A DNA stretch of 35,020 bases from Methylophaga sp. (lineage in GTDB: Bacteria > Pseudomonadota > Gammaproteobacteria > Nitrosococcales > Methylophagaceae), in the NCBI GenBank assembly GCA_030148085.1, contig JASBUF010000028.1, forward strand, positions 1-35,020, written 5' to 3'. Under the pieces are notes generated by a model. The model did no database searches, was not told the DNA's origin, and saw nothing but the letters and a program-made list of their open reading frames with translations. Each line of letters begins with the position of its first letter. Position 1 is the stretch's first letter. Of the stretch, positions 15,852 to 20,207 are shown piece by piece. The translations under genes and the position numbers were made by a program.

Positions 15852-16673
15852 TCAGGCCCGTTTTTTATAGACGGCCTGCGATTCCAGCAGCGCCATTTCA
15901 TCATCGGTGAACCCCGCTTCCAGACGTGCTTCCGTATGAAACGGACCGCGGATTTCACCGTTGAAATAGGTTTCCAGCAACTCTTTGAATGTGGCGTATG
16001 GTTCCATGTCGCGCTGCTCACACAGGTAGTTAAACCAGCGGCTGCCGACTTTTACATGACCGACCTCTTCCCGCAGGATCAGTTCTAAAATCTCAACCGC
16101 ACGTAAGTCACCTGACTTACGCAGTTTATCCATCATTTTTGGGGTGACATCTAACCCTCTCGCCTCCAGCACTCTCGGCACTAAAGCCATCCGTGTAAGC
16201 GGGTCGTGATGAGTTTTACGTGCCATTTCCCACATGCCGTCATGCGCAGAAAAGTCACCATACTGAAAGCCCATTGATCCTAGATGCTCATTAAGCATCT
16301 GAAAGTGTGTGGATTCCTCGTAGGCGACCTGCAGCCAGTCTGAGTAATAGACGTCTGGCATATCAGCAAAGCGAGCCAGTGCATCCAGAGCCAGATTAAT
16401 GGCATTGAACTCGATATGGCAGATGGCATGAATCAGCGTCGCATGACCGGTTTCCTGATTATTGCGTCGACGTGGTAAATCGCGCGGTGGAACCAGTTCG
16501 GGTTTGTCAGGTCGTCCCGGTATTTCAGGTACGTCTAAGACTTCAATTGAAACAGTAAAACCCTTCTCTTGCACCTGTTGGTAAAGGCTTTGTGTCGCCT
16601 CGGCTTTTTGCCACGGGTCGCTGATTATCAGGCAATTTAAGGCCTGCTCACGTAACGCAACTGAACTAACCAT
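15852..16673 (-). CDS. DUF455 family ferritin-like protein
   Basis: 273 aa, a member of the uncharacterised DUF455 (COG2833) family with a ferritin-like four-helix bundle. Candidate metal ligands are visible in order: His82, His86 and Glu88 (IHAICHIEF), Glu119/Glu120 and His123 (EESTHF), Glu170 (RVLEARG), and Glu202/Glu203 with His206 (REEVGHV). The motif GRPDKPELVPPRDLPRRR at 53-70 is the usual family start region. Such an ExxH helix pattern suggests a di-iron or similar redox site, but no reaction is established. Its ATG overlaps the end of the permease gene by eight bases, so it is likely translationally coupled. The stop is adjacent to that of rnfH on the other strand. Confidence 0.85.
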   Translation of the reverse strand: MVSSVALREQALNCLIISDPWQKAEATQSLYQQVQEKGFTVSIEVLDVPEIPGRPDKPELVPPRDLPRRRNNQETGHATLIHAICHIEFNAINLALDALARFADMPDVYYSDWLQVAYEESTHFQMLNEHLGSMGFQYGDFSAHDGMWEMARKTHHDPLTRMALVPRVLEARGLDVTPKMMDKLRKSGDLRAVEILELILREEVGHVKVGSRWFNYLCEQRDMEPYATFKELLETYFNGEIRGPFHTEARLEAGFTDDEMALLESQAVYKKRA

Positions 16674-17646
16674 CCAGACGTACCCGCGGGTCTACCAAGG
16701 TGTAGGAAATATCAGTCATCACTAGACCCACGATATAAAGCACAGAACCTAAGAACACCATGGCTCGGACTATGGCGAAGTCCTGTGCGTGAATCGCATC
16801 AATGGTGTAGCTGCCCAGCCCCGGAATACCGAAGAACGATTCCAGAATCAGACTGCCCATAAACAACGTCGGCAACACCACCACGGCACCGGTCAGAATT
16901 GGAATCATCGCGTTTTTGAGCACATGCGAGAATAAAACACGAACCTCTGACAGACCTTTAGCACGGGCGGTACGCACATAGTCTTTGGAGACTTCTTCGA
17001 GGAACAGAGTGCGATACCAGCGCGAGCCACTGCCAATACCTGAAATAATGCCAATAGCGACAGGCAGGATCAGAAACTTGGCGGCGTCAAAGCCGTCGGC
17101 ATAACCGGAAATTGGCACCAGTTGCATCGTCTTACCGACCAGAAACTGTCCGCCTATGATATAGAACAGTCCCGATATCGACATCAGCACCACACACAAT
17201 ACTACCCCGCTTAGATCGACATAGGTCGCACGGAAAAACACCATCAGCATGGCAAAGGTGATATTGACCATCAGGCCGATGATAAAGATGGGCAACGCTA
17301 TCGCCAGACTCGGCCACATGCGGGTTTGAATATCCTGACCGATATCACGGCCATCATCGGCCTGGCCGAATTCAAAGACAAACAGCGATAGGGATTTGGC
17401 AAAGAAGATAGTGTCAGTGACCTTTTCAGTGCCTTCGACCTCACTGTTCCAGATAAGCGGTTTGTTGTAGCCGCGTTCTTCTTTCCAGCTTTCAATCGCA
17501 GACTCGGTGACGTGCTTATTGCCGAGATGCATGCGCGCCATATCGTCCGGTGTGTTCACCATAAAGAACAACACAAAGGTCAGTGCATTCACCCCGAGCA
17601 GAATCGGGAACGCATACATGATTCGTCTGACAATATAAGCAAGCAT
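16666..17646 (-). CDS. ABC transporter permease, DppB/OppB family, partner genes absent
   Basis: 326 aa inner-membrane permease. It starts MLAYIVRRIMYAFPILLGVNALTFVLFFMV, the typical N-terminal segment of dipeptide/nickel importers, then a periplasmic part of about 85 residues (to about 115), and five further membrane segments. The cytoplasmic EAA loop that contacts the ATPase is clear (DYVRTARAKGLSEVRVLFSHVLKNA, near 219-243). The C-terminus (GLVMTDISYTLVDPRVRLDG) is that of DppB. Normally this gene stands next to dppC, an ATPase pair and a binding protein. None is in this window: upstream is a 157-base gap and a divergent gene, downstream is DUF455, with which it overlaps by eight bases. 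It could use partners encoded elsewhere or be a remnant. Confidence 0.88.
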   Translation of the reverse strand: MLAYIVRRIMYAFPILLGVNALTFVLFFMVNTPDDMARMHLGNKHVTESAIESWKEERGYNKPLIWNSEVEGTEKVTDTIFFAKSLSLFVFEFGQADDGRDIGQDIQTRMWPSLAIALPIFIIGLMVNITFAMLMVFFRATYVDLSGVVLCVVLMSISGLFYIIGGQFLVGKTMQLVPISGYADGFDAAKFLILPVAIGIISGIGSGSRWYRTLFLEEVSKDYVRTARAKGLSEVRVLFSHVLKNAMIPILTGAVVVLPTLFMGSLILESFFGIPGLGSYTIDAIHAQDFAIVRAMVFLGSVLYIVGLVMTDISYTLVDPRVRLDG

Positions 17647-17803: not shown

Positions 17804-18556
17804 ATGAAAAAACTGCTTCTCAGTTTCTTGCTGCCACCACTGTTCCTGTTCAGTGCCACCACTATAGCCGAGCCAACGCAGGTGATGGTTCGAGCCAAAG
17901 CCGTCGATGCCAAATACATCGGTACCAGTGTCGGTGGTGTGCGTGTGGTCGTTGAAGACACGGAAACCGGCGAGATCCTCGATGAGGGCTGGATTAATGG
18001 CGATACCGGTGATACCGATACCCTTATCAAAAACCCGATCAAACGAGGCCAGATATTGACGGATGACAAGACTGCTGGTTTCCTTGCCAATGTTGATATC
18101 GACGCCCCTCGCCTGCTTCGTTTTAAATTGATTGGTCCCTATGGCTACCGTCAAGCCTTGCAGGAAGCCAGTGTCACCTCATGGGTCATACCAGGTAAAC
18201 ATTTGCTCGGTGATGGCATCACCTTGACCATGACCGGCTTTGTTGTCGATGCCTGGACGCAAGTACTGGAAGGCGGCAAAGTCGAGTTCTACACCAAAGC
18301 CTCATTGCTATGCGGCTGCCCGATAACCAAAGACGGTCACTGGAAACCGGATAACTATGAAGCTAAGGCTATTTTGATGCAGAACGAGGAAAAAGTGGGC
18401 GAGATCCCACTGCAATTCACGGGACCGATGGGCATGTTTTCCGGTAAGACCACGCTCAGCGAGTCAGGGCATTACAAAGCGATTGTCTATCTTGTCGATC
18501 AAACTACAGGCAATGTCGGTGTTGACCGCACCATGTTTGAAATTGCCTTGGATTAG
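17804..18556 (+). CDS. Secreted protein with CGC motif, next to MNIO genes
   Basis: 250 aa with a clear signal peptide (MKKLLLSFLLPPLFLF, cleavage near IAE) and no other membrane segment, so periplasmic or secreted. The body looks beta-rich, with a repeated DTGDTD-like acidic loop near residues 67-72. It has only two cysteines, Cys170 and Cys172 in LLCGCPITKDGHW. No family was recognised with certainty. The ATG has GGAG ten bases upstream. It lies 60 bases before a DUF692 enzyme and its DUF2063 partner, the place where the small precursor gene (bufA-like) usually sits. It is therefore a candidate substrate or helper, but it lacks the many cysteines of bufferins; this is inference from position only. 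Confidence 0.68.
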   Translation: MKKLLLSFLLPPLFLFSATTIAEPTQVMVRAKAVDAKYIGTSVGGVRVVVEDTETGEILDEGWINGDTGDTDTLIKNPIKRGQILTDDKTAGFLANVDIDAPRLLRFKLIGPYGYRQALQEASVTSWVIPGKHLLGDGITLTMTGFVVDAWTQVLEGGKVEFYTKASLLCGCPITKDGHWKPDNYEAKAILMQNEEKVGEIPLQFTGPMGMFSGKTTLSESGHYKAIVYLVDQTTGNVGVDRTMFEIALD

Positions 18557-18616
18557 CTTGTAACAAACCGCTCTCTAACGCGTCTTAAGCCTTATAGTGA
18601 CTAACAGGAGTTTCAG

Positions 18617-19474
18617 ATGAGTACTTCATCCTGTCCAATTCAGGGTGCCGGATTAGGTCTGCGTCGCAGCTTTATCGATGACCTCGACAAGCTGGACGAG
18701 ACCAATATCGACTTTATGGAAGTGGCACCGGAAAACTGGATGGAAATGGGCGGTACCTATGGCCGTAAGTTTACCGCTATGGCAGAACGTTTTCCGATGT
18801 TGTGCCATGGCCTCTCGCTGTCTATCGGCAGCCCTGCCCCGCTGGATGAACACTTTCTGCAACGCCTGAAAAAGTTTTTCGATAAGCACAAGATTCGTTG
18901 CTATAGCGAGCACCTGAGCTATTGCAGTGATGATGGTCACCTTTACGACTTGATGCCGATTCCGTTCACTGAGGAAGCCGTGCATTACGTTGCCGACCGT
19001 ATCAAGCGCATTCAAAACATTCTGGAACGGCGACTAGTGATTGAAAACGTCTCTTACTATGCCGCGCCCGGTCAGGAATTAAAGGAGGTCGACTTTATCA
19101 CCGCGATATTGCAGGAAGCTGACTGTGATCTGCTGCTGGATGTGAATAATGTTTTTGTGAACAGCATCAATCACCGCTACGATCCGATGGACTACATCAA
19201 GGCCATGCCAACCGATCGCGTTGCCTATATGCATATCGCTGGTCATTACAATGAAGATGAGGATTTAATTGTCGATACTCACGGCGCCGACGTGATTGAT
19301 CCCGTCTGGGACTTGCTCAACAAAACCTACGCCCATCATGGTGTGCTTCCAACCTTACTGGAACGTGACTTCAATATTCCGCCGCTGCCGGAGTTACTCA
19401 GCGAAGTTAGTACCATCCACCGCTACCAACAACAGCATCAGTCGAAACATGTCACACACGCCAGCCAGCTTTAA
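18617..19474 (+). CDS. bufB: DUF692 multinuclear non-heme iron oxidase (MNIO), BufB-like
   Basis: 285 aa TIM-barrel enzyme of the DUF692 family. Members (MbnB, TglH, BufB) use an iron cluster to modify cysteines of peptide precursors. Conserved metal-ligand positions are visible: Glu39 in EVAPENWME, His64 in CHGLSL, Glu98-His99 in YSEHLSY, Glu143-Asn144 in IENVSYY, Asp175 and Asn177 in LLLDVNNV, His206/His210 in HIAGHY, Asp220 and His222 in DTHG, and Glu249. The ATG has an AGGAG site. Its partner overlaps its end by 26 bases. The symbol is by family resemblance to BufB; the substrate is unknown because no bufferin gene is nearby. Confidence 0.85.
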   Translation: MSTSSCPIQGAGLGLRRSFIDDLDKLDETNIDFMEVAPENWMEMGGTYGRKFTAMAERFPMLCHGLSLSIGSPAPLDEHFLQRLKKFFDKHKIRCYSEHLSYCSDDGHLYDLMPIPFTEEAVHYVADRIKRIQNILERRLVIENVSYYAAPGQELKEVDFITAILQEADCDLLLDVNNVFVNSINHRYDPMDYIKAMPTDRVAYMHIAGHYNEDEDLIVDTHGADVIDPVWDLLNKTYAHHGVLPTLLERDFNIPPLPELLSEVSTIHRYQQQHQSKHVTHASQL

Positions 19475-20207
19475 ACACACTCAGTACCAGTTTGCGGCGC
19501 ATATCCGCGATCCAGAGCATCAGCCTGCTCCCAGTAATCTTGAAGATCGACGCATGGCGATTTACCGCGACCTGTTCTTTAACAATATCAACGGCACATT
19601 GAAAAATGCCTTTCCGGTTATCCGCAGCCTAATGAACGAAGCACGGTGGGAAACCATGGTCAGGGACTTTATGATCACGCACCGCTGTAAAACACCGCTG
19701 TTTGTGGAAATTGCGCGTGAATTTATTGCTTACCTAGAAACTGAACGTCAGGCTGAATCCGACCCGCCGTTTCTGCAAGAACTCGCCCACTATGAATGGG
19801 TGGAACTGGCACTAAGTATTGCTGAGCCGGAATATACCTCTACGCCCGTGACAGAAAATGAAGATGTGCTTGCACTCTACTTCGACCAGTCACCTCTTGC
19901 CTGGCTATTGGTCTATCAGTACCCAGTTCATCAAATCAGCGCCGAAAATCAACCTGAAACCCCGTCAGACATACTAGTGTGTTTATTGGTGTACCGTAAC
20001 CACGAAGATAAGATTAAATTTATTGAGCTCAATTCTGTGAGTGCAAAACTGCTTGAGCTAATAGCGCATGGCCAGACAGGCTATGAAGCCGTTGATGAAC
20101 TTGCTAGAGCCATGCAGCACCCTGATCCGCTGGTTGTCGCCAATGGCGCTATCGGCTTGATTCGGGACTGGGCTGAGCGCGGTGTTTTGCTAAAACAGCA
20201 GGCATAA
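19449..20207 (+). CDS. bufC: DUF2063 family partner of the MNIO enzyme, BufC-like
   Basis: 252 aa. The N-terminal domain (residues 10-100) matches DUF2063 by the segment AIYRDLFFNNINGTLKNAFPVIRSL and the following WETMVRDFMI and PLFVEIAREFIAYL. In other MNIO systems this protein (MbnC, TglI or BufC type) binds the enzyme and presents the precursor. The remainder (about 130-252) looks like a second alpha/beta domain without recognised motifs and ends AERGVLLKQQA. The ATG at 19449 lies inside the end of bufB, without its own ribosome binding site, so translation is coupled. It is closed by a strong terminator 20 bases on. Confidence 0.82.
   Translation: MSHTPASFKHTQYQFAAHIRDPEHQPAPSNLEDRRMAIYRDLFFNNINGTLKNAFPVIRSLMNEARWETMVRDFMITHRCKTPLFVEIAREFIAYLETERQAESDPPFLQELAHYEWVELALSIAEPEYTSTPVTENEDVLALYFDQSPLAWLLVYQYPVHQISAENQPETPSDILVCLLVYRNHEDKIKFIELNSVSAKLLELIAHGQTGYEAVDELARAMQHPDPLVVANGAIGLIRDWAERGVLLKQQA

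Follow-up and report, generated by a model that had tools for sequence, protein, structure and literature searches.

The oxazolin genes of nontypeable Haemophilus influenzae, which encode the enzyme HvfB, its partner HvfC, an EGKCG-type precursor that begins like a signal peptide, and HvfX, form one operon (PMC13419390). Fontiphorin (FonABC) and the other captophorins, with a DUF2063 partner and EGKCG-like repeats, are described as a gene cluster as well (PMC13097082). Here we describe a 35,020-nucleotide stretch of Methylophaga sp. DNA (contig JASBUF010000028.1, positions 1 to 35,020; hereafter the window), in which an hvfBC pair follows the gene of P1, a 250-aa exported protein with a CGC motif. 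The source genome encodes counterparts of all four components of the oxazolin system. However, the precursor half lies on another contig (C4), together with MsrPQ and an extracytoplasmic function (ECF) sigma factor gene, and, unlike in H. influenzae, a shared promoter-like element precedes both separated halves. We consider it highly probable that the window hvfBC genes are the maturase half of a split oxazolin/captophorin-type copper-peptide system whose precursor half is on C4, with probably a single ECF sigma factor for both.

P1 (17804..18556, + strand, from the list of open reading frames, ORFs), hvfB (18617..19474, +) and hvfC (19449..20207, +, ATG at 19449) are three co-directional genes of the window. 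The gap between P1 and hvfB is exactly 60 bp (18557-18616), and hvfB and hvfC overlap by 26 bp. The preliminary description of the locus (a complete MNIO (DUF692) enzyme, an overlapping DUF2063 partner and, 60 bp ahead, a protein with two cysteines in a CGC segment) proved accurate. The 285-aa enzyme matches PF05114 with 359.8 bits (cut-off 25) over positions 1-262 of 263 and passes the NCBIfam HvfB model NF003818 (451.6 bits, cut-off 360); its closest solved structure by sequence is 3BWW (E 2.3e-77). The partner, a DUF2063/RRE protein, passes the NCBIfam HvfC model NF050145 (308.4 bits, cut-off 142), and its DUF2063 and NGO1945_C domains both score above cut-off. The source genome, an assembly of 95 contigs that is 89.92% complete, carries one MNIO.

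In FonB, Arg15, Arg16 and Phe250 have been tied to substrates of the Lys-Cys type, whereas Asp in place of the Phe goes with Cys-Lys substrates (PMC13097082). The window enzyme shows Arg16-Arg17 together with Asp251-Phe252, the RR/F signature of Lys-Cys (EGKCG-type) enzymes, the correspondence to FonB numbering being by motif and not by alignment to FonB. RR and F were found in 45 out of 48 distinct MNIO sequences from the examined loci, a set chosen by regular expressions that left out sequences not fitting them; the exceptions were L032 (RT/D), L033 (RK/D) and L233 (RE/A). Among the matches listed, all seven MNIOs with an EGKCG gene in their locus have RR and F. The window pair is an HvfB/HvfC pair whose active site carries the signature typical of EGKCG-type (oxazolin/captophorin) enzymes, and it shares with fontiphorin the signature, the DUF2063 partner and, on C4, the EGKCG-like repeats, but not the clustered arrangement.

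Bufferins (Buf1/DUF2282 and Buf2) also have a signal peptide and an MNIO plus DUF2063 maturase. The window enzyme differs from theirs in that it stays below the cut-off of the BufB model NF050167 (279.9 bits vs 310) and carries F in place of D at the specificity site. No DUF2282 (PF10048) bufferin was found in the source genome (about 90% complete); Buf2-type precursors were not searched for. In one member of the Methylophagaceae, the family of the source (G033, locus L032), we noticed a second, bufferin-type MNIO; next to it are two Cys-rich ORFs, with 10 and 11 Cys, both with signal-peptide-like starts.

Profile A1, made from seven HvfA-like proteins of relatives, gave a single match in the source genome, at G000:C4:6585-6854. 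It lies in a gene for a 114-aa peptide (C4 6516-6860, - strand) with a signal-peptide-like start and seven cysteines (positions 56, 61, 72, 77, 88, 99 and 110), which fall in EGKCG, EAKCG and EGTCG motifs. The peptide passes the HvfA repeat-domain model NF050137 with 60.7 bits (cut-off 19.5). A strict GKCG-x-GKCG pattern had 0 matches in the source genome; it misses this peptide because the second motif is EAKCG. Behind hvfA follow the genes of HvfX (DoxX; C4 5827-6447; NF050144, 235 bits, cut-off 80), MsrP (466 bits, cut-off 207) and MsrQ (183 bits, cut-off 130). The ECF sigma gene is divergent from hvfA, and directly behind it a Cys-containing ORF of 79 aa (L140 7577-7816, +) may encode an anti-sigma factor, to judge from a zf-HC2 match below cut-off (E 0.013). 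Oxidored_molybd and ferric-reductase genes are known in small numbers of EGKCG clusters, and sigma factor genes have been found in Buf1 clusters (PMC12452194). Thus, a precursor is absent where the preliminary description had missed it, next to the hvfBC pair, but not from the genome, and its alternative suggestion of a precursor encoded elsewhere is borne out by the HvfA-like gene with HvfX on C4, whose promoter-like element is common with hvfB.

This element was recognised as TGTAACA-N16-GTCTA-like sequences upstream of hvfA genes in the family. In the window it reads TGTAAC-N17-GTCTT and occupies 18559..18586 (+) in the gap between P1 and hvfB. When both strands of the source genome were searched for TGTAACAW-N15-GTCT, only two occurrences were found, one before hvfA (C4:6926) and one before hvfB (18559); the reversed control pattern had no match there. 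Across 12 genomes of the genus, the source included, there were 35 matches, which by position fall into 12 before hvfA, 10 before hvfB and 6 about 0.5 kb from the hvfA element on the opposite strand, the rest lying elsewhere. The extra opposite-strand copy was seen in G002, G007, G012, G014, G022 and G023; by its position it falls close to where the sigma gene ends.

A looser pattern, TGTAAC-N17-GTC, was scored within 120 bp upstream of each gene, in distinct regions. It was present before 41 of the 55 MNIO genes and 30 of the 37 hvfA genes, but before none of P1 (0/85), oppB (0/43), Eda (0/37) or the further control genes HvfC (0/50), DUF455 (0/32) and RatA (0/26). The 14 MNIO genes without it are L010 (one base off), the bufferin-type MNIO of L032 and 12 loci outside the family; of the 7 hvfA genes, L045 differs by one base and the other 6 belong to loci outside the family. 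Counted for the family only, the pattern precedes hvfB in 41/42 and hvfA in 30/31 cases, and it is also present before hvfB in four family loci that lack P1 (L035-L038). A lone TGTAACA stands 82 bp before the window P1, without GTC at the proper spacing. A scan for sigma-70 promoters gave a single site, whereas shuffled sequences averaged 3.7. As the motif was derived from these data, the genome-wide count and the control genes serve as checks. The ECF sigma factor encoded beside hvfA presumably reads the element. Of the findings that, by the preliminary description, would speak against P1 as the substrate, a bufferin-type gene elsewhere in the genome that is co-regulated with the pair is borne out only in so far as the two share a promoter-like sequence.

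Co-occurrence was studied in 58 genomes, including the source, with HvfA scored at E <= 0.001 and HvfC above its cut-off. HvfA and HvfC were both present in 37 genomes and both absent from 16; three had HvfA only (G001, G019 and G047, 55-85% complete) and two HvfC only (G044 and G045), which gives a phi of 0.80. G044 was scored HvfA-negative despite a GKCG pattern match on the contig of its HvfC. In the 48 genomes that are at least 90% complete, phi rose to 0.95 (both 33, HvfA only 0, HvfC only 1, neither 14). The corresponding figures for P1 and HvfC were 28 with both, 7 with P1 only, 11 with HvfC only and 12 with neither (phi 0.34), and 24, 3, 10 and 11 in the at least 90% complete genomes (phi 0.45). 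The genomes are related, so all these figures are descriptive.

In 31 of the 37 genomes with both genes (30 of the family, plus G038), hvfA and hvfC lie on separate contigs or are separated by 48 kb or more. In the other 6, which belong to other families, the distance is 1.2-1.8 kb. Within this sample, the split of hvfA from hvfBC is a lineage trait.

Put together, these observations suggest the following scheme. Once freed, the ECF sigma factor would transcribe hvfA-hvfX-msrP-msrQ and hvfBC from the matching TGTAAC-N17-GTCT promoters. HvfC would present the C4 HvfA to HvfB, which would oxidise the cysteines of its EGKCG-like motifs to 5-thiooxazoles ahead of Sec export; such chemistry is described in PMC13419390 and PMC13097082. 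The exported, modified peptide may then bind copper outside the cytoplasm.

Several points weigh against this scheme. The source HvfA stays below the narrow HvfA model NF050188 (32.1 vs 95 bits), and we therefore call the peptide HvfA-like and reserve the plain name HvfA, strictly speaking, for proteins that pass this model. At about 90% completeness, the genome could be missing another precursor. The element was first recognised in the same sequences that were used for its counts, and 7 of its 35 matches in the 12 genus genomes lie elsewhere, while the reversed pattern gives 6. When promoters were scored more loosely (at least 10 of 12), MNIO (43/47) and hvfA (31/37) genes were marked and oppB (1/42) and HvfC (0/8) hardly or not at all, but so were P1 in 25/59 (17% in shuffles) and Eda in 8/41 (8% in shuffles). 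A slightly different scoring of the P1 regions points to two causes: 19 rows are truncated P1 fragments (L111-L139), for which a wrong stretch was scored that reached the hvfB element, and others are TGCAAC- or TGAAAC-type runs, apparently in the coding sequence of the gene preceding P1. The exact-pattern counts above are free of the first error. Read-through from P1 into hvfBC is possible, as a terminator scan found no + strand site in the P1-hvfB gap. Finally, the family strongly conserves P1 and hvfB as neighbours, which we read as inherited order, and 8 out of 9 P1 genomes of a class-wide sample, the source and a congener included, have an MNIO.

The neighbourhood was studied in a wider contig scan, which kept 80 loci of 114 P1 relatives. 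Of these, 39 (L151-L188 and L190) were assigned to the family by identity of at least 60% and, mostly, by shared neighbours. An MNIO is present in 33 of the 39 family loci (in L154 about 2.3 kb behind P1), so the arrangement is not due to chance. Of the six without one, L159 stops only some 0.1 kb after P1, in L167 and L190 the next gene is Eda, and none is present in L170, L174 or L179; in L174 (genome G030) the MNIO is 49 kb away. None of the 41 loci outside the family has an MNIO, and 34 of these extend for at least 5 kb on both sides. PF05114 was also undetected in 36 of the 40 genomes of these loci that were searched, which are of unstated completeness and do not include that of L205. In the class-wide sample, P1 occurs in 9 and an MNIO in 170 out of 274 genomes; in three of the P1 genomes (G047, G115 and G219 of that sample) the listed MNIO is on a contig other than that of P1, and in three more (G149, G247 and G278) its position is not among the matches listed. 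The counter-evidence named in the preliminary description, P1 homologues that lie mostly away from MNIO genes, is thus seen outside the family though not inside it, and the Cys motif does not go together with an MNIO as a substrate class would require.

P1 itself has no cysteines other than Cys170 and Cys172, in LLCGCPITKDGHW, and C170, G171 and C172 are invariant in alignments A2 and A3. CGCP is kept in 41/41 loci outside the family, while three family P1 proteins have CGCK. One of the two seed patterns of the contig scan contains CGCP, so conservation of CGC in that scan is partly selected; all 7 extra-family loci that do not match this seed nevertheless keep CGCP. The survey of the 58 genomes, with P1 homologues in 35, was not seeded on CGCP. 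At E <= 1, P1 matches no model of Pfam or NCBIfam, and a Pfam search with 33 members yielded weak Ig-like and stray matches only (best E 0.0033). Searches of the PDB by sequence returned one chance-level match each for P1 and its alignment, and the viral contigs searched held no P1 relative. An AlphaFold2 (AF2) model from 33 sequences (pLDDT 93.6, pTM 0.85) is mostly beta, and Foldseek matched it to Ig-like proteins, with a query TM-score (TMq) of at most 0.35 among the best 50 matches listed. P1 thus represents a family of exported proteins that is widespread and in which CGC is invariant. That this motif acts on thiols or metals would be a guess. Members were noticed in Flagellimonas, Muricauda, Caulobacter, Marinobacter, Idiomarina and others (L151-L230).

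What, then, is the relation of P1 to the enzyme? It might be a functional partner rather than a substrate, for example a periplasmic copper-handling protein that works with modified HvfA. Joint function would account for the conserved neighbourhood, and the P1 model does partially match the copper-resistance protein CrdA (9ll2; rank 17, E 1e-3, 105 columns, target TM-score (TMt) 0.53). However, the Ig-like sandwich matched is a common fold, the promoter-like element is missing before P1, extra-family P1 genes mostly occur without an MNIO, and three family genomes (G026, G028 and G033; 99% complete) have hvfBC without P1. We regard such a partnership as unlikely.

The preliminary description favoured P1 as the substrate, with the CGC segment as the modified site and thus a new, protein-size class of MNIO substrates. 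The position of P1 60 bp before hvfB, the MNIO in 33/39 family loci and in 8/9 P1 genomes of the class sample, the invariant CGC, the signal-peptide-like start and the preference of FonB for a Cys-Gly dyad (PMC13097082) all speak for this. On the other side, CGC is retained in every one of the 41 extra-family loci without an MNIO, and in 36 of the 40 genomes no MNIO was detected; G037, G039 and G040, at 99-100% completeness, encode a CGCP-containing P1 but lack an MNIO, and G026, G028 and G033 have hvfBC but lack P1. Additionally, the hvfB element lies after P1, none of the 85 P1 upstream regions carries it, and the conserved NPF...GYM stretch of HvfA-like proteins is absent from P1. CGC kept without MNIO, hvfBC without P1 and the lack of a promoter-like element upstream led us to abandon the substrate role of P1 as the leading explanation, and we now find it very improbable. 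With a precursor gene elsewhere and apparently one shared switch, P1 is probably not the target of the enzyme but a conserved neighbour with its own history, outside the hvf unit. It is equally hard to credit that HvfBC serves some other precursor and leaves the C4 HvfA unmodified. An assembly of 95 contigs may lack such a gene, the models may have missed it, and MNIO precursors are diverse (PMC12452194). Yet HvfA is found in 33 of the 34 HvfC genomes that are at least 90% complete and in none of those without HvfC, the two halves share the element, and the enzyme signature fits EGKCG substrates. There is also scant probability that P1 of the family was recruited as a second, protein-size substrate whose CGC loop is oxidised alongside HvfA, in which case one maturase would serve a distant peptide and a folded neighbour.

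The split system bears on how MNIO substrates are sought. Genome mining for such systems mostly searches the surroundings of the enzyme gene for a precursor. Adjamnio and other MNIO-adjacent proteins are, like P1, encoded just before an MNIO gene (PMC12452194); unlike Adjamnio, P1 has only two cysteines, and most of its extra-family relatives come from genomes in which no MNIO was detected. Here the neighbour resembles a decoy, and a better candidate was reached far away via co-occurrence and a shared promoter-like element. A sizeable share of the Buf1 and Buf2 precursors is encoded away from MNIO genes, and their modification by an MNIO encoded elsewhere has been suggested (PMC12452194). Our results suggest a general route by which orphan MNIO genes could be matched to precursors encoded far away, which that paper raises as a possibility but does not settle. 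They also argue against one proposed class of MNIO substrates and bring out a widespread family with an invariant CGC. In a literature search, which left most subscription journals outside, we recognised no description of a split hvfA/hvfBC system with a shared ECF promoter.

The genes of an Opp-type ABC transporter are divided between the same two places. Its oppB gene (window 16666-17646, - strand) is the divergent neighbour of P1, and oppC-like and oppDF-like genes lie beside the sigma/hvfA locus (G000:C4 8072-11514, in L140, - strand). In G037-G040 (L142-L145), oppB-, oppC- and oppDF-looking genes are grouped near P1, and both hvf loci may therefore share one ancestral neighbourhood. Two HvfC matches in other genomes, G016:C7:715686-716402 and G020:C3:47084-47800, each contain one in-frame stop.

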